Positions 21,981-35,610 of a stretch of DNA of 64,000 nt are shown here, in pieces. The first letter of the stretch is position 1, and each line of letters opens with the position of its first letter. This DNA comes from Rubrivirga marina (GTDB taxonomy: Bacteria; Bacteroidota; Rhodothermia; Rhodothermales; Rubricoccaceae). The translations under genes were made by a program, and so were the position numbers. The notes beneath the pieces were generated by a model. The model was not told where the DNA came from, made no database searches, and saw only the letters and a program-made list of their open reading frames with translations. The stretch lies in NCBI RefSeq assembly GCF_002283365.1, contig NZ_MQWD01000001.1, positions 2,656,793 through 2,720,792 on the forward strand, given 5' to 3'.

Positions 21981-22030
<50 letters not shown>

Positions 22031-22154: not shown

Positions 22155-23297
22155 GTGAGCAGCCTCGTCAAGTCGAAGTCCGGCCAGTACTACCTCCAGT
22201 TCTACCGGGACGACCGCCGTCCGAAGCGGCGACAGGTCCCGCTGAAGACGTCGTCGAAACGGACGGCCACGCGGGTCCGATCGCACGTCGACGAACTGTT
22301 TCTGAGGGGGGAGTTCGACCCGTGGGAGACGACGGACTTCGTGGCTGCGACGGAACCCGACGGGAACGTGGTCGGCTACGACGCCGCGGTCGTCCTTTTC
22401 CTCGCCTCTAGGGGGGGGAGGTCGGAGCGGACGGTCGAGTCCTACCGGAACACCCTCCGGTCGTTGGGTCGGTCGCTCCCCAAGGGCGCTAGAGCGCACG
22501 AGGTGACGCGGGACGACGTGCTACGGTGGGTCCGGTCGGGGAGGGGGAACGTGACGACCCAGCACTCGATGGCCCGCCACGCCTCGGTGTTCTTTCGCTG
22601 GGCAGCAGAGGAAGGTGGGATCACCGACAACACGGGGCGCCCCGTCGAGAATCCGACGCGGAACCTCCGGCTGCCCCCGATGCCGAGGAAGAGCCCGAAG
22701 TGGATCCGCCCCGAGGAGGTCCGGCTGATCTTGGAGGCTCTGCCCACGACCGGGCAGGCCACGACCGACGGGACGCACTGGCTGTACCCGATCATCCGGT
22801 CGAACGTGGTCCTCGGGCTAAGGGCGTCCGAGGTGTGCCGGCTTGTGTGGCGAGAGGTCGACCTAGAGTTGGGCGAGTTGGCCGTGTTCACGACGAAGGG
22901 GCACTCGGAGCGCGTCGTCCCGGTGTCCTCGGTGGTCCGACAGGAACTCGGGCGGATCCGCTCGTGGTCGCGCTCGGAGTGTGGTCGTGAGCCGGGCGGC
23001 GACGAGCACGTGTTCCGGACGTCGCCCGAGGCGGGGCGGCTCTGCCCCCGGTACCTCTCCCGCCAGTTCAAGAGGTACGTCCGAGCGGCTCTCCCTGAGC
23101 ACCGAGCCCGCGTGGTCAACTTCCATTCGACCCGTCACTCGGCAGCGTCGTATCTCGCGCAGGCGGGGAAGACGGCGGAACTGATCCGGGAGTACATGGG
23201 CCACGCGTCGGTCGCTACGACGTACAAGTACGTCCACCTGGAGAGGGAGGCGGTCCACAAGGAGAGCGTGGGGGTGTTCGACCGATTAGCGTTGTGA
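22155..23297 (+). CDS. Tyrosine recombinase (integrase)
   Basis: A 380-residue site-specific recombinase starting at GTG 22155, 125 bases inside the left junction. An N-terminal basic arm-binding region (SSLVKSKSGQYYLQFYRDDR) precedes a SAM-like core-binding domain. The catalytic domain holds Arg223 (LGLRASEV), Lys248 (TTKGHSERV), His324-x-x-Arg327 (HSTRHSAA), a His near 350 (MGHASVATT) and the nucleophile Tyr357 (TTYKYVH). All catalytic residues are intact, so it may still be active. No excisionase gene is recognisable beside it. Confidence 0.94.
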   Translation: MSSLVKSKSGQYYLQFYRDDRRPKRRQVPLKTSSKRTATRVRSHVDELFLRGEFDPWETTDFVAATEPDGNVVGYDAAVVLFLASRGGRSERTVESYRNTLRSLGRSLPKGARAHEVTRDDVLRWVRSGRGNVTTQHSMARHASVFFRWAAEEGGITDNTGRPVENPTRNLRLPPMPRKSPKWIRPEEVRLILEALPTTGQATTDGTHWLYPIIRSNVVLGLRASEVCRLVWREVDLELGELAVFTTKGHSERVVPVSSVVRQELGRIRSWSRSECGREPGGDEHVFRTSPEAGRLCPRYLSRQFKRYVRAALPEHRARVVNFHSTRHSAASYLAQAGKTAELIREYMGHASVATTYKYVHLEREAVHKESVGVFDRLAL

Positions 23298-23420: not shown

Positions 23421-24914
23421 ATGATGAACGCGCTCTACGTCCACAACCCCGGGAGGAACGTCCATCACACGAGGTTCCTCGACTTGGGCAAGGTTTCGGT
23501 CCTCTGCGGGAGGAACAACAGCGGGAAGACTACCCTGCTAGAGTCCGTCCGCGACATCGGTATGAACGGGAGCGCCGCCCTCGGATCACCGGCCATTCGA
23601 CTAGAAGGTGAGTTCGCCGAGGCGCTCTGGCGACAGGTCGAGAACGAGTGTAAGGTCAACAACTGGTCATTCTCGAGTGCGAAGGACCAGATCGAGCGTG
23701 CGTGGGGCGGCGATCTCCTTGATCTCGAGAAACAACGGGAAGTGGTCGAGCGGATCGGCGCCTTCCGGGGCTACTCGAACTTGCAGAAGGCGGTAGAGAA
23801 CGCCGTAGCGACCGCGTTGAAGAAGTTGCCCAAGCGGGTCTTAGTGCCGGCCAAGCGGCTACGATTACAACAAGCGGCGTTCAAGTCGGAGCCTTCAGGA
23901 GAACTGAACCCCAGGGGCGAGAACCTGCTGAACTACCTGTTTTGGTCAAAGAACCAAGTGCAGGGATCTCGTCCCTACTCGTACTACGGGGAATTGAGGG
24001 GGCATTTCTCGACGGTCACAGAGGGGTTCGATTTCGACGTGACGTTGAGTGGAGGCTCACTGACTTTGAAGATCCTCCCACCCTTCGGGGGTAAGTGGGA
24101 TGCAGCGGAGTCGTTCGGGCTCGGTCTCCACGACGTCCTACTCATCCTCGCCGTCGCGTTGGCTGAGGACGCGGGGCTCCTGCTCGTAGAGGAGCCCGAG
24201 AACCACGTCCACCCGGCCATGCAGCGACGCCTGTTGCAGGTCCTCAAGCGGGAGACGACGAATCAATACCTTCTCTCGACCCACTCCAACGTCTTCCTGG
24301 ACAACGCGTTCGTTGACAAGGTCTACTTCACAGAGTTCGTCGATGGCGAGGTCCGGTTGAGCGACGTGACAAGCAAGGCGTCGCTCCTCGATGACCTGGG
24401 TTATGAGGTGACCGATAACCTGACCGCGGACGTCGTGGTGCTCGTGGAGGGACCCACCGATGTGCCGGTGCTGGAGACGCTGGCGCTCAGGAGGGAGGAT
24501 CTGCGGTTGAAGCAGATCAAGTTCTGGCCGCTCGGCGGAGACATCATGGACCAGTTGGACCTCAGTGTCCTGACCGATTCCAACAAGGTCGTCGCGATCG
24601 TGGATGACGACCCGGGGAGCCGTCGTGTCCGAGATCGCTTCTTGGCGAAGTGCGCGGAGTTGGAGGTTCGCTGCCATCGCTTAGGGCGCTACGCTATAGA
24701 GAACTACTTCACCGTGGACGCGCTGCGATCGGTATACGGCGGGCAGCTCCCGGAGGATGTAACGAGAATCACCCCGAGAACTAAGTTAGAGAAGCAGATC
24801 GGCTTCAACGTGAAGAGGCGCAATCGGGATATCGCCGAGGCCATGTCGTATGAGGACGTAGCTGGAACCGACCTCGGCGATTTCTTCGACCTGTTGGCGG
24901 AGGTCGCCAGATGA
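23421..24914 (+). CDS. OLD-family ATPase/TOPRIM nuclease
   Basis: A 497-residue protein. The N-terminal SMC/ABC-type ATPase has Walker A GRNNSGKTT (residues 30-38) and Walker B/signature LLLVEEPENHVHPAMQRRLL (about 254-273), followed by LLSTHSNVFLD. The C-terminal TOPRIM nuclease has the catalytic Glu343 in VLVEGPTDVPV and the acidic cluster Asp395-397 in AIVDDDPGS. This is the layout of class 1/2 OLD nucleases and of GajA of Gabija defence. No UvrD-like GajB or RT partner lies nearby, so it is best read as a solo OLD defence nuclease. Tandem ATGs at 23421 and 23424 are both possible starts. Confidence 0.88.
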   Translation: MMNALYVHNPGRNVHHTRFLDLGKVSVLCGRNNSGKTTLLESVRDIGMNGSAALGSPAIRLEGEFAEALWRQVENECKVNNWSFSSAKDQIERAWGGDLLDLEKQREVVERIGAFRGYSNLQKAVENAVATALKKLPKRVLVPAKRLRLQQAAFKSEPSGELNPRGENLLNYLFWSKNQVQGSRPYSYYGELRGHFSTVTEGFDFDVTLSGGSLTLKILPPFGGKWDAAESFGLGLHDVLLILAVALAEDAGLLLVEEPENHVHPAMQRRLLQVLKRETTNQYLLSTHSNVFLDNAFVDKVYFTEFVDGEVRLSDVTSKASLLDDLGYEVTDNLTADVVVLVEGPTDVPVLETLALRREDLRLKQIKFWPLGGDIMDQLDLSVLTDSNKVVAIVDDDPGSRRVRDRFLAKCAELEVRCHRLGRYAIENYFTVDALRSVYGGQLPEDVTRITPRTKLEKQIGFNVKRRNRDIAEAMSYEDVAGTDLGDFFDLLAEVAR

Positions 24915-26676: not shown

Positions 26677-27090
26677 ATGTCGGTGCCGGATCGTAGAAAG
26701 AGAATACAGATGGAAAGAGAGTTCATTAAAGAGATGGTCGAGCTAGACGGCGTCGTCTTCGTCATGTTCGACTCCGGGTCCGTGGCGGTCCACGAGGAGT
26801 GGAGCCGGAACAAGGGGACGGAAGTGACGGGCTGGGAGACCACGACGGCCACCGGGCTCGACGGGGACGACCACGAGGTCGTCCGGGTCTCGGTGGGGGT
26901 CCAGATCAAGACGTTCCTCTTCGACGAGGTCGTCGCGGGGCTCCTCTACGGGGAGTGCCCGCGGGGTCACGCCGTGTACCGGACCGTGTCGGACGAGGGG
27001 TACCCCCACGACCTCGGGTACCACAAGTGCGAGCGGGTCCGCGCCGACGGGACGCCGGAGTGGGGGAGGCTCAACCCCTACCCCTTCTAG
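26677..27090 (+). CDS. Hypothetical protein with possible Cys/His metal site, 137 aa
   Basis: The product starts MSVPDRRKRIQMERE. The C-terminal half has GECPRGHAVYRTV followed by YPHDLGYHKCERV, a Cys/His spacing that could bind zinc. No known family is recognised. Its first ~25 codons are AT-rich while the rest is strongly GC-rich, suggesting a join of old promoter or leader sequence to host-like coding sequence. It reads towards the polymerase-palm gene 119 bases away, possibly one operon. Confidence 0.6.
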   Translation: MSVPDRRKRIQMEREFIKEMVELDGVVFVMFDSGSVAVHEEWSRNKGTEVTGWETTTATGLDGDDHEVVRVSVGVQIKTFLFDEVVAGLLYGECPRGHAVYRTVSDEGYPHDLGYHKCERVRADGTPEWGRLNPYPF

Positions 27091-27209: not shown

Positions 27210-28910
27210 ATGAATAGCGAAAACAATATGCACAACATGGGAGATGGCCCCCATGTCGAAAATGCCTCAGTCCTCCGCCCGTTCTCCGGAGGCTCCACGC
27301 CCGGGTTCTCGGTCCTCTACGACGAGGTCCGGGTCTCCGAGTCCCCGGCGGTCTCCCGGGTCTTCGAGGTCCTGGACCGCGAGGGCGCCGTAGGGAGGCA
27401 GCGGCGGGACCAGATCCGGGTCATCGTCGGTCAACTCGTGTACAACCTGGAGCACGCGCTGGCGACGGAGCGGGGTCTACAGAAACCGGCGCCCGTGTGG
27501 GTGGCCCTGAACCTCCAGAGCACGCAGGGTCGGGACCGGTACCGGCGGGAGCACTTCTCCTACGCACGGATCCGACGGATTCTGGACGGTCTAAAGCGCC
27601 TCGGGTGGATCGACGTGTATGCCGGTCGCCCTGGCTGGGCGAACGATGGGCTTGGGAAGGCGACCCACCTCCGAGCCACGATGGAGCTCGCATCGATCCT
27701 GGAACGGTCCGACTCAGCTGAGGTGGACGGCACGCGGTCGGCGTCGTTCGCCGGTTGCTCGGGTTCCAGGTCCTTCCTCCTACCGAAAGTCGAAGTCGTC
27801 GTCCTCCGGGACAAGCCGGAGCGTCCGAGGCGCTCGGGCAAGAAATCAGTCGAGGTCCAGTACGTGGACAACGACGCCACAAGGGCCATGAGGCGTCACC
27901 TGAACGACCTGAACGCGAGGTTGGACCACAGCCACGTGACCCTCTCGGTCCCCCTCGGGCTCGTCCACGTGTCCGGGTCGACCGTGAGCGTCCTCCCGAG
28001 ACGGAACACGTCCCACTCGATCAGCTGTCGTGGGTCCAACCCCTCACTTGATCTGGTGAATGTGTCTGATTTATGCCATATGAACCTATCTAAGATATCC
28101 CATTACACAGACTGTGGTCACGTATCCCTTCTTCATTATATGCATAGCAACTCGACTGATAGAGACGGGATCCGATTCGTCCCCGCCTATATCAAGAAGA
28201 AGCCTGAGGCCAAATACGAGAGGCTCAAGCGGTACCTCCGGTTCGACTCCATGCACTGCGACGTGTCCAGCGGGACGGTCACGTGGACGCTCCCGTACGC
28301 CTACAAGCAGGTCTTCCGCTCGTTCTCTCGCGGGTCGTGGGAGAAGGGGGGACGGTTCTTTGCCCCGTTCCAGGAGCTGTCCAAGACGCTCAGAGAGCAC
28401 CTGACGATCGACGGGGAGCCCACGGTCGAGGTCGACTACCCGTCGCTCCATTTCAACCTCCTCTACCACGGGCTAGGTTTGGAGATGACGGAGGAGGTGG
28501 GTCGAGACGCGTACGACGTCGGGCTTGATGTGCCCCGGACGACGCTGAAGATCGTCGCCAACTCGATGCTCAACGCCCCGAACTACCAGAGCCTCTACCG
28601 GATGCTCAAGGCCAAGGACGCGGACCCCAAGGAGGTGCTCGACCTCAACGGCCACTCGGCGAAGGACGTCGTCCACGCGCTCAAGCGGCTCCACGAGCCC
28701 ATCGCGGGCTATTTCCACAGCGACATCGGGATCGATCTCCAGTTCGTGGACAGCCGAATCGCGGAGCGCGTGCTGAGTCGGATGACGGTCCTCCCGGTCC
28801 ACGACTCGTTCGTCGCTCCACGGAGCCGGGTGCAGGAGCTGCGGCGGGTGATGGCGGACGCGTACGAGGTGGTGGTCGGTCGCCGCATCGCGCTCGGAAA
28901 ACCAGAATAG
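27210..28910 (+). CDS. Winged-helix protein with family-A polymerase-like palm (putative replication protein)
   Basis: A 566-residue protein. Residues ~70-160 look like a winged helix-turn-helix (HFSYARIRRILDGLKRLGWI) as in plasmid Rep proteins. The C-terminal third shows polymerase motifs in order: A, VEVDYPSLHFNLLYHG with Asp409; B, RTTLK (Arg443-x3-Lys447) like the O helix; C, VLPVHDSFVAP with His531-Asp532. That order matches the PolA/T7 RNA polymerase palm. The family-A aromatic residue after motif B is absent, and there is no exonuclease domain. An AT-rich patch interrupts the gene at about 28040-28160. It may replicate the excised element or act in defence. Function is inferred from motifs only. 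Confidence 0.6.
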   Translation: MNSENNMHNMGDGPHVENASVLRPFSGGSTPGFSVLYDEVRVSESPAVSRVFEVLDREGAVGRQRRDQIRVIVGQLVYNLEHALATERGLQKPAPVWVALNLQSTQGRDRYRREHFSYARIRRILDGLKRLGWIDVYAGRPGWANDGLGKATHLRATMELASILERSDSAEVDGTRSASFAGCSGSRSFLLPKVEVVVLRDKPERPRRSGKKSVEVQYVDNDATRAMRRHLNDLNARLDHSHVTLSVPLGLVHVSGSTVSVLPRRNTSHSISCRGSNPSLDLVNVSDLCHMNLSKISHYTDCGHVSLLHYMHSNSTDRDGIRFVPAYIKKKPEAKYERLKRYLRFDSMHCDVSSGTVTWTLPYAYKQVFRSFSRGSWEKGGRFFAPFQELSKTLREHLTIDGEPTVEVDYPSLHFNLLYHGLGLEMTEEVGRDAYDVGLDVPRTTLKIVANSMLNAPNYQSLYRMLKAKDADPKEVLDLNGHSAKDVVHALKRLHEPIAGYFHSDIGIDLQFVDSRIAERVLSRMTVLPVHDSFVAPRSRVQELRRVMADAYEVVVGRRIALGKPE

Positions 28911-29197: not shown

Positions 29198-30991
29198 CTA
29201 CCCATCTTTGAGTCTCTTGAACTGAATGCCAGGTATGCCACTAAGATATTTGTGGACATGATATGAGGTCAGATAAATTGGCTCATTTGCATCTATGTCT
29301 TCATTGGTAATGTTTTTATACGATCTATGTATATACCATCCTGTGCCTCCTTGTACCTCAATTAGTATTGAGATTCTTATTAGCATGCAAATTGAATCGA
29401 ATATTCCAGGTATAGAAGTAAGTTCTTCAATTGAAGATTCGGAATATCCGTCTATTGGAGAATTTGGCGAACTGAATTTAGTTGACATATAGCCTATGAG
29501 TTTCAGGACTGCATACCCTAGATCATAAGATGGTATCAAGTTGGGTTTTTCAAGTTTAAGTCTGGATATGAACGAAGAAAAGCTGTTTAGGTTGAAGCTT
29601 CTAATTACTTCGTCGTTTGCTAACGTGACCGCCAACCAGAGGGCAGGGTCCGCAGAAATAGCTACCGCTATAGCGGCAGGGTGAGGGTAATTCTCGATAT
29701 AGTTGTAAAATGATTTTGTGAGCGGCATACGCACGATGTGGTTTGCTGCAAGAAATTCTTGTAGAGATAGGTGGGAAAACTCATAGTGATCAGAGACCTT
29801 GGTAATTATTCCCGTATGGGATTCAATCTCACGCGCGACGGCGCCTGCTTCTCCCATCGGTAGCTTAAATCGCGGCGCTAGAGATTGGTACGCGATTTCG
29901 AGTGCCTCCGTAGTAAAGCTCTTGCTCTTAAATTGAACTGTTATCCAATATGAAAGATGTGATAGAAACTCTAGTTTCCTGTCGTTATCGAGTCCGGCAT
30001 ATTGGGATATTCGTATAATGCCGCGCTGCTCAGACCACTCAGTAAGCAACAACCGAACTAGAGTCCTGTACACCGAAGAGGGCTGGTCCGGTAGGGCTTC
30101 AGATAGTTGATATATGTAAACAAGAGTGCAGAGTAGCAGCGGGCGGTTCGCGACGTCGTGGTATGGGGTGGATCCGAGCTCCTTGACGAACGAGGTTGCG
30201 TCACCTAGCCAGAGGGATGATATCTCTACAATCTGATCGTCTGTGAGGGGCTGAATTTCTGTAACTCTGTATCCCTGTATAAATCTGACAAAGTCGGCGG
30301 ATCTGCAAGTCGCGATAACTTTAATATTGTAATCATAACTTATGATCTGCAGCTCGTCAATCAGCTTGTTGCGAGCTGATGCAGGCATTTCATCGATTCC
30401 ATCTAGGATGAGACAGCATCTAATTTCATTTATCAATGAATATACAAAATCATCAAGCTTGCCTTCTTGTATAGTATATCTGGCATCGTCCCCGTTGATT
30501 TCGATTTTGTACGGTATTTTAAGTGTATCAGATATTGCTACATATAGAAATGAATAGTTTTCAATCTCTCTGAGTCTGATTACTATTGGCATATATTCAT
30601 AAACCCCTGAATCAGATTCGCTAACTAATAATCTCTGTACAATACGCTTAAGAGTAGTTGTTTTTCCTGATCCTGGGTCGCCTAATAGTACATATGAATT
30701 GTCATCCTTGATTAGGTCGTCCTCGTGCATCGTGATTCCTCTGTTACCCCTGACACTAAATCTGCGGGGCATATCGGTGATTTTAAGTCTTATAGTGTTG
30801 GAGTTTACTAGGCGAGGTGTGCTGAGTCCCAGAAATTGAATATCCTCACTCCATCTGAAACTAGATATTAAATGTCTCGACACAAGATTTTCGAAGTCAA
30901 TTTCACTTGTATTAGACCCTCTCTGTTTGAGTCGTTTTTTTACAATTTCAGATACAGCCGACTTTAGTACCTCTATGGCTATCGTTTCCAT
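29198..30991 (-). CDS. NACHT-domain NTPase, candidate anti-phage NLR-like protein
   Basis: A 597-residue protein. A ~95-residue N-terminal region precedes a STAND NTPase: Walker A LLGDPGSGKTTT (about 102-113), Walker B CLILDGIDEMP (193-203, the acidic D-x-x-DE form typical of NACHT), and the winged-helix motif FSHLSLQEFLAA. The C-terminal ~170 residues are unrecognised and would be the sensor; no canonical LRR, WD or TPR repeat is seen. Bacterial NACHT proteins are known single-gene anti-phage defences. The gene is strongly AT-rich compared with the host, so it was acquired separately. The N-terminus lacks an obvious nuclease or protease effector. Confidence 0.85.
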   Translation of the reverse strand: METIAIEVLKSAVSEIVKKRLKQRGSNTSEIDFENLVSRHLISSFRWSEDIQFLGLSTPRLVNSNTIRLKITDMPRRFSVRGNRGITMHEDDLIKDDNSYVLLGDPGSGKTTTLKRIVQRLLVSESDSGVYEYMPIVIRLREIENYSFLYVAISDTLKIPYKIEINGDDARYTIQEGKLDDFVYSLINEIRCCLILDGIDEMPASARNKLIDELQIISYDYNIKVIATCRSADFVRFIQGYRVTEIQPLTDDQIVEISSLWLGDATSFVKELGSTPYHDVANRPLLLCTLVYIYQLSEALPDQPSSVYRTLVRLLLTEWSEQRGIIRISQYAGLDNDRKLEFLSHLSYWITVQFKSKSFTTEALEIAYQSLAPRFKLPMGEAGAVAREIESHTGIITKVSDHYEFSHLSLQEFLAANHIVRMPLTKSFYNYIENYPHPAAIAVAISADPALWLAVTLANDEVIRSFNLNSFSSFISRLKLEKPNLIPSYDLGYAVLKLIGYMSTKFSSPNSPIDGYSESSIEELTSIPGIFDSICMLIRISILIEVQGGTGWYIHRSYKNITNEDIDANEPIYLTSYHVHKYLSGIPGIQFKRLKDG

Positions 30992-31429: not shown

Positions 31430-31819
31430 CTATTGGCACCCGACCAGGACAATCAGCCTGTTTACTTCGTCAACGATCTGGAGGTCGGGTGCGCCCCGCC
31501 GAGCTGAGTCGCGCCCGTCTTCGTCGGGGAGGTCGAACTCCGAGCGGACCCGGATGCCGTCGCACTCCTTCTCCATACCCTCGGCGAAGCGGATGGCAAC
31601 GAATCGCCCGTCCTCCTTCGAATGTCGCTCAATCTCGGCGGGCGCGTCGGGACGGATGAAGACCGGTTCCGGCGATCCGGACTTGAAATCCGACGCGAGG
31701 GGAGCCTCCCGGATGACCGCGTCGCACGACGAACTGGCGGACGGTTCGGGCGCGAGAGCATCCAGTTCGAGGCTGGCGGCGCCGCTCAGGGCTCGCCCCC
31801 GACCTCGTGGAAGAGGGCT
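31430..31819 (-). pseudogene. Coding remnant without a start codon
   Basis: A minus-strand frame of ~129 codons has clear coding character (PVFIRPDAPAEIERH, FVAIRFAEGMEKECDGIRVR, LQIVDEVNRLIVLVGCQ) but no ATG, GTG or TTG start until codon ~77. The frame shifted by one base immediately upstream also looks coding (TDEISELEALFHEVGGEP then stop at 31786). The simplest reading is one leftward gene broken by a frameshift near 31790 and truncated by the HsdR-N gene. The family is not recognised; a translationally coupled pair is the alternative. Confidence 0.4.
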
Positions 31820-31875
31820 TCAAGTTCGGAGATCTCGTCGGTCTCGCCGGGGTGGTGGGAGTGGCCGATATTGAG

Positions 31876-33120
31876 ATGGCGTCCGCTGGGGTGAGGCGGT
31901 CCCTGCGCCGGTATCTCGTACGTCCTGATACACTGACTCTGCCCTCGTTGCTCACCGTCTCCGACGACTTCCTGACCCTCCTCCGGCGCGTCGCCGGGGA
32001 CCCGAACCTCGCGACGTTCAACGAGGACCAGACCAAGCAGGGGATCGTCCTGGAGACGTTCCGCCGTCTGGGGTGGGACCCGTCGGACGTCGACGAGGTC
32101 TACCCGGAGTACGGCTCGGGCGACCTCAAGCGGGTCGACTACGCGCTCCGGATCGGCGGGAAGAACCGGGTGTTCGTCGAGGTCAAGCGGTGCAACGTGG
32201 ACCTCGAGGCGCACCAGGAGCAGCTCCTCTACTACGCGTACCAACAGGGCGTCCCGCTGGCCGTCCTGACTAACGGCGTCGTCTGGTGGTTCTACCTCGC
32301 CCAGTGGGAGGCGACCTGGGAGCAGCGGAAGTTCTACTCGATCGACCTCCAGCAGCGGGACACCGACGAGGCGGCGGCTCGGTTCGTCGACTTCCTCTCG
32401 AAGGGGAACGTCGAGACGGGGCGGGCGCAGCGGAACGCGCAGGAGGTCCTGACGAGCCAGAAGCGGCAGAAGGAAGTCCGGCGGACGCTCCCCGAGGCGT
32501 GGGCGGACCTCCTGGCCGGACCGGACCCGACGGTCGTCGAGGTGGTCAAGGACCGGGTCGAGCAGCTCTGCGGGTACACCCCGACCGACGAGGAGGTCGC
32601 CGCGTACCTCCGTGCCCGCGACGGCGCGGGACCCCCTCGCCGTCCCGATACGAAGCCTCTATACGAGACAACTCGGGAAGAGACCACTCGGGGTACTGGG
32701 GAGGCGGGCAGCCCTGACGATCGGGGCGCGGGCGGTCCCGCGGGTCCTCGGACCCTCCTCTCTCTACGGGAGGGCGCGGACCTCGGTAACACGAAGCCGC
32801 GCTTCCTCGTGATCGGTGGGGACCGCCTGGACGCGGCGAGTTGGTCGGCGGCGTCGGTCGCGTTCGTCCGTTGGTTCGTCGAGCGGGGTCACCTGAGACG
32901 CGAGGACCTGCCCGTCCCCACGTACTCGAAGCGCGGCAAGTGCTTCGTCAGCGACCATCCCGGTCACGCCGACCCCGACAAGCACGGCGCGTGGACGGAG
33001 GTCGACGGGTTCTACGTGGACACCAAATACAACGCGATGGGGCACGTGATGAACATGATCGCCCTGACCGATCACGTCGGTCGCGACGACCTCGACGTCC
33101 GCGTCGCTCTTCAGACCTAG
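31876..33120 (+). CDS. HsdR N-terminal-type (PD-(D/E)xK) nuclease-domain protein
   Basis: A 414-residue protein with the ATG at 31876 (an earlier in-frame ATG at 31807 is possible). Residues ~35-175 match the type I restriction R-subunit N-terminal nuclease: EVYPEYGSGDLKRVDYAL then RVFVEVKRCNVDLEAHQEQL, giving the D...ExK active site, then YYAYQQGVPLAVLTNGVVWW. There is no helicase, so it is not a full HsdR. The C-terminal ~100 residues form a second, unrecognised domain (FLVIGGDRLDAAS, EVDGFYVDTKYNAMGHVMNM), joined by a disordered Thr/Glu/Gly linker. Such stand-alone HsdR-N proteins are common in mobile elements. Confidence 0.75.
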   Translation: MASAGVRRSLRRYLVRPDTLTLPSLLTVSDDFLTLLRRVAGDPNLATFNEDQTKQGIVLETFRRLGWDPSDVDEVYPEYGSGDLKRVDYALRIGGKNRVFVEVKRCNVDLEAHQEQLLYYAYQQGVPLAVLTNGVVWWFYLAQWEATWEQRKFYSIDLQQRDTDEAAARFVDFLSKGNVETGRAQRNAQEVLTSQKRQKEVRRTLPEAWADLLAGPDPTVVEVVKDRVEQLCGYTPTDEEVAAYLRARDGAGPPRRPDTKPLYETTREETTRGTGEAGSPDDRGAGGPAGPRTLLSLREGADLGNTKPRFLVIGGDRLDAASWSAASVAFVRWFVERGHLRREDLPVPTYSKRGKCFVSDHPGHADPDKHGAWTEVDGFYVDTKYNAMGHVMNMIALTDHVGRDDLDVRVALQT

Positions 33121-33127
33121 ACAGACC

Positions 33128-33628
33128 GTGGCCCCCAACTTCCAAGACAAGGCGTCCTTCATCTGGCAAGTCGCCGACGACCTCCTCCGGGGCACGTTCA
33201 AGCGCTCTGAGTACGGCGACGTGACACTCCCGTTCGTCGTCCTCCGCCGCCTCGACTGCGTGCTGGAGGAGCGCAAGGAGAACATCCTCGCGACGTACGA
33301 GGGGTTCAAGGACCAGCTCACCGAGGACCAGCTCGACGGCGTCCTTCTGAAGACGAGCGGGGTCGACCTCACCGAACGCGACCGAGTCCGCGTCGAGGAG
33401 ATCGTACGCGACGCGCGGGAGTCCGAGGAGGTCCAGGCGGTCATGACCGGGAACAACACGCGGTCTGGCCAGAGGCACGTGGTCGACCGGGTCGTGGACG
33501 AGCGGGTGTACGAGGAGGTCACCCACGGGGTCGACCTGTTCAAGAAGCTCTCGGACCCGAGGGCGAACCGGATCCTGAAAGCGCGGCTCTTCGACGAGTT
33601 GATCCGTCAGTTCTCCCAAGCGGCATAG
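33128..33628 (+). pseudogene. Collapsed type I RM remnant: HsdM N-terminus joined to HsdR C-terminus
   Basis: A 166-codon open frame starting at GTG. Residues 1-~80 match the HsdM N-terminal domain (FIWQVADDLLRGTFKRSEYG, LPFVVLRRLDCVLEERK, LLKTSGV). From about residue 81 it changes to what looks like the HsdR C-terminal helical domain (LTERDRVRVEEIVRDA, VDLFKKLSDPRANRILKARL). The methyltransferase domain, HsdS and the motor part of HsdR are missing. This is best explained by an in-frame internal deletion of a hsdM-hsdS-hsdR operon. It is still open, so a small fusion protein may be made. Confidence 0.65.
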
Positions 33629-33814: not shown

Positions 33815-35173
33815 ATGGAATCATCTAAAAACTTTGTATTTGTTCTAGGGTCTGGAACATCTATTCCTTCTGGAGTGTCGGGAGTGGCCGATATAACTAG
33901 AGTTTTGCAAAGCTCGATCGTGGACAATGAATTGTTATATAATAGTATTGTGTCAGAAATTAAATTTGATATAGAAATATCTTGCAACGATAATAAATCT
34001 TGTGTGGAGATAGGGCAGAATATGATTCTATCTATTTTAGATAAGATAAATGAATATGAGAGATACGTAAGCAATAGAAGGATAGAAATACTACATGATA
34101 GATTGGGTCGTCGTGAGGTCAACGAGGTGGGTGGATTTTTGGGATCAGAACTCAAGTTGATTGATATGATTTTAGAGTACGAAGCTTGTGGGGACAGGAT
34201 AGAGTTTCGATACTCTGCGAATTACGAAGATGTTCTATACGTACTACAGCAGATGGAGAGGGTCGAAAGGGGGGAATTGTATGACCCGTCATCAATTATG
34301 TACTCTCAATATCTCGCAGAAAACCATGACATGATATCATCTGAAAATGATAGTATAAGTGATTTACTGAATACTGTATTAGTTGCAAGATATATAATAT
34401 ATGCCGTCATAAAACAGGAACTTGAGAAAATACCTGATAATATAGAGGGTCTTGATTTGATATGTGATGTTTATAAAGCCGAATGGTTGAATCGTATGGC
34501 TATTGTCACATTCAATCACGATATGTTGATTGAAGCTTTACTGGATAGAAATCAAATTCCATATACAACAGGCTTTCTGCCTGGCGATGTGGGTGAGGAC
34601 TATTTCAGCCCGGATCTATTGTTTCCCGAGCCGAGTCGCAATGTGGCTGTGTTAGGTGATGATGTAGTTCGGGTAATAAAAGTACATGGATCTGTAAACT
34701 GGAGAGTTGGGTATATAGGAGAAGATTACAATAAAATGAAACGTCTTATATCATTGACTGACGATGAGATAAGAGGCGGGCCACGATTGTCAGCAAATCA
34801 TCTGGGGTATGCATTCATTTCTCAAATGCCGTACTTGCTTACTGGTGGCGGGAAGGAGGGAATGTATAATTACAAGACGTACGGACATCTGCAGCATGCA
34901 TTCCAGAATTGGTTAGATATATCAGATATTGTATTTGTTGCTGGTTTTGGATGGAATGACAAGGGTGCCTCTGACATGATATCAAGATGGATGGAATTTG
35001 CGGGAAATAAATGCTTGTTCTCACATACTGACCCGCGCAAAGCGCTATTTGACTCTAAGTGGGGCAGAAACCTGCTCGCGGCTGATGTGGACAGGTCGGG
35101 TGGTTTGAGATACATAGAAAAATTCATGAGGGACATTGCCGTCGATGACATTGAGAGTCTGGTAGGGGTATAG
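33815..35173 (+). CDS. SIR2-domain protein, candidate defence NADase
   Basis: A 452-residue protein with divergent SIR2 motifs: FVLGSGTSIPSGVSG (residues ~8-22, NAD-binding GAGxS), VTFNHDMLIEAL (Phe233-Asp236, replacing the TxNxD motif), VIKVHGSVNW (catalytic His291) and VFVAGFGWNDKGASDMI near residue 375. No zinc-binding cysteine quartet is present, so it belongs to the SIR2_2 group of NAD-cleaving defence effectors rather than deacylases. No partner (HerA, Ago, TIR or prophage-sensing protein) is adjacent. A ~150-residue helical insert lies between the first two motifs. The gene is strongly AT-rich. Confidence 0.85.
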   Translation: MESSKNFVFVLGSGTSIPSGVSGVADITRVLQSSIVDNELLYNSIVSEIKFDIEISCNDNKSCVEIGQNMILSILDKINEYERYVSNRRIEILHDRLGRREVNEVGGFLGSELKLIDMILEYEACGDRIEFRYSANYEDVLYVLQQMERVERGELYDPSSIMYSQYLAENHDMISSENDSISDLLNTVLVARYIIYAVIKQELEKIPDNIEGLDLICDVYKAEWLNRMAIVTFNHDMLIEALLDRNQIPYTTGFLPGDVGEDYFSPDLLFPEPSRNVAVLGDDVVRVIKVHGSVNWRVGYIGEDYNKMKRLISLTDDEIRGGPRLSANHLGYAFISQMPYLLTGGGKEGMYNYKTYGHLQHAFQNWLDISDIVFVAGFGWNDKGASDMISRWMEFAGNKCLFSHTDPRKALFDSKWGRNLLAADVDRSGGLRYIEKFMRDIAVDDIESLVGV

Positions 35174-35222
35174 CTTTGCGCCGCCAGGTGCGCGCCACAG
35201 GATGGGGCGGCGTCCGGCGAGC

Positions 35223-35255
35223 GGTGGTCGAGGGCGGACTTGAACCGCCGACACA
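35223..35255 (-). repeat. Inverted copy of the tRNA-Phe 3' half
   Basis: These 33 bases are the exact reverse complement of 35498-35530, covering the variable loop, T arm, acceptor 3' strand and ACC of tRNA-Phe. Upstream of it, on the minus strand, the sequence diverges at the anticodon stem, so it is a 3' half only. It lies inside the island, about 200 bp from attR. It is probably the scar of another integration at a tRNA-Phe, or a deleted composite end. Confidence 0.8.
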
Positions 35256-35360
35256 TGGCCAGTCCACAACGGGTGTGCCCTCACGGGCTCTTCGCGTAAA
35301 CGGGGGTGCGGTTGCTGGGACCGTGCCTAAATTGGGGACCACGCGCTGCTGGCAGGGCTC

Positions 35361-35444: not shown

Positions 35445-35528
<84 letters not shown>

Positions 35529-35610
35529 CCCGCTCTTTCAGACACCGCGCCCAGCGGTTGAAGATCCAGCGGAGCGCGCCCCAGCGCTCGACGGCCCCCG
35601 AGGCCGTCGC

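Follow-up and report, generated by a model that had tools for sequence, protein, structure and literature searches.

The gene at positions 27210-28910 encodes a 566-aa protein that is predicted to consist of an N-terminal winged helix followed by an A-family polymerase palm, and it resides in a mobile element inserted into a tRNA-Phe gene. The protein is probably a small active DNA-copying enzyme, and we consider it most likely (probability about 0.6) that its role is to prime and/or copy the element after excision. The palm fold, the catalytic residues, the membership in an element and a two-gene core of integrase and polymerase were established by computation. The initial annotation had proposed an element-encoded winged helix and A-family palm lacking an exonuclease, and this architecture is borne out by AlphaFold2 modelling, VIA-align structural comparison, the att repeats and an empty site.

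Polymerase gene, motifs and predicted fold

The analysed stretch (the window) comprises 64,000 nt of the Rubrivirga marina genome (GCF_002283365.1, NZ_MQWD01000001.1, positions 2,656,793-2,720,792). The features of the polymerase gene are listed below in window coordinates.

27210..28910, + strand: TV-Pol/divPolA2-type polymerase gene; intact ORF of 566 aa, phrog_4756 match 3.5e-45
27336..27746, + strand: predicted N-terminal winged-helix domain, residues about 43-179; pLDDT 83 in a separate model, winged-helix rows at Z 6-7.3
28002..28244, + strand: low-confidence insertion, residues about 265-345; pLDDT <50 at 265-331, a gap in most relatives
28257..28907, + strand: A-family palm with reduced fingers, residues 350-566; pLDDT about 95, best 50 VIA-align rows A-family DNA polymerases or single-subunit RNA polymerases (ssRNAP)
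28434..28436, + strand: D409, motif A catalytic aspartate; 128/128 relatives
28449..28451, + strand: H414, at the position of Pol I Glu710 (ribose gate); profile alignment DYPSLH = DYSQIE
28536..28550, + strand: R443-x3-K447, O-helix motif B; R in 128/129, K in 129/129 relatives
28803..28805, + strand: D532, motif C catalytic aspartate (HDS)

The polymerase motifs read GGR382, VEVD409YPSLH414, R443TTLK447 and VLPVH531D532S533F, so that motifs A, B and C are present in an intact ORF in the order originally described. Residue conservation was tallied over 126 fetched loci without selection for E.D...H. R382 (126/126), R395 (128/128), E407 (126/128), D409 (128/128), D433 (125/128), Y435 (128/128), R443 (128/129, the exception being Lys) and K447 (129/129) were all conserved. 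HDS was found in 130/130 relatives, a count that is biased because the loci were fetched with a pattern containing HDS. All 93 aligned relatives matched phrog_4756 and, given the near-invariant residues in the tally, the motifs lie far beyond chance. Judged from these sequences, practically every relative that could be read retains the two catalytic aspartates together with the Arg of the template hairpin and the RxxxK of the O-helix. The palm had been called degenerate; this is wrong for the catalytic residues, the set of which is complete.

In Pol I, Glu710 excludes ribose. The corresponding position is occupied by His in 119 of 128 relatives, by Gln in 4, Ser in 2, Ala in 2 and Leu in 1, and by Glu in none, and we infer that the loss of the gate Glu relaxes sugar choice in this protein. 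The position of Tyr766 is taken by Asn455 (Asn in 122/129 relatives), in agreement with the earlier remark that the aromatic residue after motif B is missing.

The AlphaFold2 model, built on a 93-row alignment, had a pTM of 0.79 and a pLDDT of about 95 across residues 350-560. In the model, strand 403-409 ends with D409, helix 443-455 opens with R443, and H531-D532 form the turn of a hairpin (528-530/533-537); as modelled, this placement is the Pol I arrangement. A template hairpin precedes the palm, with GGR382 on strand 380-384, and in the thumb region one long helix (222-240) precedes the hairpin, the remainder being modelled with low confidence. The best 50 VIA-align rows (Z 8.1-10.1) were all Pol I-type DNA polymerases, among them apicoplast Pol, Bst, Taq, T7, Pol theta and Pol nu, or T7 and mitochondrial RNA polymerases (T7 RNAP, mtRNAP). 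The top ranks in Foldseek were A-family polymerases as well, with E-values of 0.005 and above. The fold check suggested in the initial annotation thus did not yield a fold unrelated to the polymerase palm.

Profile alignment was collinear with Pol I, with GGR382 matching the TGR motif, D409 matching DYSQIE and HDS matching HDE. The comparison, made with hhalign on a small set, was weak for both Pol I and ssRNAP (local probability 26-28). No family in Pfam or NCBIfam matched the window polymerase. PF00476 (DNA polymerase I) matched none of the 93 members, and PF00940 (RNA_pol) gave no match to the window protein and matched 2/93 members, at best with 0.0013. An exonuclease domain is absent from the 566-aa protein.

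The N-terminal domain matched a JetABC subunit, eS19, LmrR and MepR structurally at Z 6-7.3, which indicates similarity at the level of the fold only, as Z is below 8. PadR-type sequence matches to the domain were weak (profile E-values 0.02-0.09), and the full-length profile gave only weak winged-helix matches when compared with PDB sequences. Rep_3-type initiators were absent among the matches listed for the domain, and the winged helix first proposed as "Rep-like" weakly resembles PadR/MarR regulators. The predicted winged helix is a refinement of published descriptions, since the N-terminal domain of the TV-Pol branch was predicted in 2008 to be all-helical (PMC2579912) and no known fold was found for that of divPolA2 in 2024 (PMC11348598). 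In pattern-1 SCC elements an analogous slot is held by LP1413, a winged-helix ssDNA-binding protein (PMC7581432).

Host element and accompanying genes

The polymerase gene lies between two exact 41-bp direct repeats of tRNA-Phe that delimit an element of 13,464 bp.

21990..22030, + strand: attL, 41-bp 5′ part of tRNA-Phe; exact direct repeat
22155..23297, + strand: tyrosine integrase of the element; PF00589 4.7e-24
23421..24914, + strand: cargo, AAA/OLD-like ATPase-TOPRIM; PF13304 3.2e-20, PADLOC AriA/GajA-type matches
29198..30991, - strand: cargo, NACHT/STAND NTPase; PF05729 1.7e-7
31807..33628, + strand: cargo, HSDR_N nuclease-like ORF, then truncated HsdM N-terminus; PF04313 2.9e-9, PF12161 1.7e-14
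33815..35173, + strand: cargo, SIR2-like protein; PADLOC SIR2 6.5e-14
35454..35494, + strand: attR, the same 41 bp in the intact tRNA-Phe gene (35455-35531)

The integrase gene starts 125 bp inside attL. When the two flanks were joined, they aligned across the junction to two congeners with 81-82% identity, showing that the element is absent from these genomes. The G+C content falls to 37% within the element, compared with about 70% outside.

The cargo also includes an HNH gene. The ORFs at 31807-33628, which hold HSDR_N and the N-terminal part of HsdM only, look like what is left of a type I restriction system. The NACHT/STAND NTPase and the SIR2-like protein have 37-47% GC in a host of 70% GC and probably represent recent defence cargo. 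At 35219-35258 on the minus strand, close inside the element's right end, we observed an inverted copy of the tRNA-Phe 3′ half (95% over about 40 bp), about 195 bp ahead of the intact tRNA-Phe gene. An ORF of 137 aa (26677-27090) is located on the same strand 120 bp upstream of the polymerase; it had no significant database match and no counterpart in related loci.

Neighbour clustering placed a tyrosine integrase within 9 kb of the polymerase in 44/70 genome loci, and 35/52 of the integrase ORFs were within 3 kb of it. The R. marina genome contains 13 integrases per 4.98 Mb, from which a chance expectation of about 5% per 20-kb window follows. A resolvase recurred in 10 genome loci. Among the other genes of the window only the integrase has homologues beside the relatives, apart from one distant match to the NACHT gene; OLD, HNH, HSDR_N, HsdM_N and SIR2 had no counterpart among related loci. 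No helicase was recurrent near island members in the genome loci, no D5/DUF927 helicase was found within the window element, and neither an SSB-like nor any other small conserved partner gene was seen near relatives.

In 20 loci, integrase and polymerase were bracketed by direct repeats, one copy of which lay at a tRNA gene, although the shortest of these repeats could individually be due to chance. In one element of 4.9 kb the only recognised genes were the integrase, the polymerase and a caspase-like ORF. On the viral contig IMGVR_UViG_3300037296_000253 (L122), a 3,347-bp unit occurs three times in exact copies, which start near positions 1, 4660 and 8007; two lie in tandem, and each has a 24-bp repeat. 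As this unit holds just the integrase and the polymerase, the minimal unit appears to be two genes.

The L122 contig is prophage-like, with capsid-, portal- and terminase-like genes. In a related 8.5-kb element, an RNase H gene directly follows the polymerase (L048:10669-11130), an arrangement suggestive of RNA primer removal.

Relatives and distribution

By sequence comparison, we assign the window protein to the divPolA2 family: the divPolA2 representative AUR84708 matched the family profile with 1.7e-43 over residues 23-424, and gave 6e-11 against the window protein in BLASTP. A tblastn search returned 139 phage records, mostly from Vibrio and Aeromonas, along with three large plasmids. Contig scans yielded 211 related stretches in bacterial genomes, of which 80 were kept, and 46 in viral contigs; a viral-contig scan with the single window sequence found nothing, and an alignment of 13 rows was too diverse to yield patterns. 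The gene was carried by 9/395 sampled genomes of the window's phylum and by none of eight other genomes of its family, a scattered distribution of the kind usual for mobile genes.

ORF100 of the Vibrio phage ICP1 (HQ641347) is a member of the family (profile 4e-52), and barbaviruses also carry the polymerase. Motif C of ICP1 ORF100 (L197:3032-4699) reads HDA, not HDS. In a tree of 94 palms from phage and island members the two groups interleave, with at least seven label changes forced by well-supported branches, indicating exchange of the genes between phages and islands. The window polymerase forms a long branch without close kin, its best identity being 39% over the palm.

The protein had been suggested to be little-described. 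It has in fact been published, as TV-Pol (PMC2579912) and as divPolA2 (PMC11348598); the suggestion holds for the integrase-linked branch, for which we found no biochemistry in the literature. We found no paper that names phrog_4756, a family of unknown function.

Proposed function and known systems

A role as a replicase, which was suggested at the outset, or in primer synthesis is in our opinion the best reading of the polymerase, and we found no support for the template-independent polymerase also suggested. The integrase would excise the element from tRNA-Phe, as the computed att repeats and empty sites suggest, the winged helix would bind element DNA and present a single-stranded template, and the palm would join nucleotides by a two-metal mechanism, producing primers and short strands from which copying of the circle could start. 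Helicase and bulk elongation would be supplied by the host. Some observations count against a replication gene: no helicase was recurrent near island members, whereas CCPol and the D5-linked TV-Pols adjoin one, and a conserved SSB-like partner was not seen. In phages, divPolA2 has varying neighbours and accompanies a separate replicative polymerase (PMC11348598), so that it is not the main replicase there. A more specific proposal, which we put forward tentatively, is a one-chain primase-polymerase in which the winged helix takes the place of the SSB partner found in CCPol-MP and the loss of the gate permits a ribonucleotide or mixed start. With the integrase, it would provide all the genes that a helicase-free element needs to excise, copy and reinsert itself.

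The catalytic fold cannot separate a primase from a gap-filler or an RNA polymerase. An A-family palm without proofreading and without a helicase partner would suit a gap-filling or second-strand DNA polymerase, one that does not prime but finishes or mends element DNA that has been excised, integrated or taken in as single strands. CCPol alone extends primers and needs MP for priming (PMC7581432), and repair has been suggested for divPolA2 (PMC11348598). Such a role would, however, leave the DNA-binding winged helix unexplained by itself, and it is hard to see why a 3.35-kb two-gene unit should retain a polymerase when host Pol I is able to fill gaps; we regard a gap-filling role as unlikely. 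We are more doubtful still that the protein is a T7/mitochondrial-type enzyme, either a single-subunit RNA polymerase or a maker of RNA primers, an option also raised for divPolA2 (PMC11348598). This option would agree with HDS in place of HDE in motif C, with the absence of the ribose-gate Glu, with the two PF00940 matches and a match of the phrog_2051 RNA polymerase to one member, and with the presence of T7 RNAP and mtRNAP among the best structural rows. Yet DNA polymerases rank equally well structurally, collinearity with Pol I extends over the entire palm while that with RNA polymerases is confined to the surroundings of motif C, the equivalent of Tyr639 is Asn, and no N-terminal domain of the T7 type was recognised.

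The initial annotation had also placed the polymerase in a defence pathway with the neighbouring nucleases, and the cargo does include OLD, STAND, SIR2 and restriction fragments. We rejected this role, which we consider highly improbable, because the cargo is not shared with related loci, save for the one distant NACHT match. In addition, PADLOC gave no match for the polymerase, its gene stands apart from the cargo, and it is conserved with integrases and present in phages too.

The DnaG and AEP families account for most of the known primases. If the branch described here primes, it would represent a widespread further priming solution, used by tiny integrative elements of many phyla and by phages such as ICP1; among A-family palms, priming is known from SCC elements (PMC7581432). 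The analysis joins two literatures, on the phage divPolA2 and on the integrase-linked TV-Pol islands, and supplies precise ends for the element, a minimal unit of two genes and testable features (His414, Asn455 and the winged helix). The unusual traits of the protein are the replacement of the ribose-gate Glu and the presence of a winged helix instead of an exonuclease or a partner SSB.

Like divPolA2 (PMC11348598), the window protein combines a palm of the A-family/ssRNAP fold with an N-terminal domain and has no exonuclease. AUR84708 differs in having Glu at the gate and FDE in motif C, and is a phage gene, whereas the window's gene belongs to a chromosomal integrative element. In anatomy, context and hosts the window protein fits the integrase-linked TV-Pol branch (PMC2579912), with which it and its relatives share the hairpin Arg, a two-Asp palm, fingers with a conserved Asp (D433) and RxxxK, the lack of a nuclease fusion, linkage to a lambda-type integrase or resolvase, islands with restriction genes and the overlapping hosts Paracoccus, Loktanella and Methylobacterium. 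The N-terminal domains are set apart by prediction, all-helical in TV-Pol and modelled as a winged helix with a beta wing in the window protein, and the record of the TV-Pol-listed phage Ma-LMM01 gave no match to the family profile.

TV-Pols were predicted to be prim-pols (PMC2579912), and SCCmec CCPol-MP, classed as a TV-Pol, is an active primase-polymerase (PMC7581432) and the experimentally tested relative in function. In common with the window protein, these PolA-SSB primases of SCC elements (PMC7581432, PMC10061031) have an A-family palm that is encoded on a mobile element in the vicinity of a site-specific recombinase. CCPol is close to Pol I in sequence, needs its partner MP, sits in a helicase operon and is reported to keep the equivalents of Glu710 and Phe762 and to prime with dNTPs only (PMC7581432), while in the window protein a winged helix is fused to the palm and the gate is His, and neither a partner nor a helicase was seen. 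With Pol I and T7 DNA polymerase it shares the palm fold and collinear motifs 1, A, B and C, and it differs from Pol I in the missing exonuclease, the shorter fingers, HDS for HDE, His for Glu710 and Asn for Tyr766. With the T7/mitochondrial ssRNAP it has in common the palm fold and an HDS motif C, and it is distinguished from them by its compact fingers, its Asn for Tyr639 and an N-terminal domain not recognisable as the T7 type.
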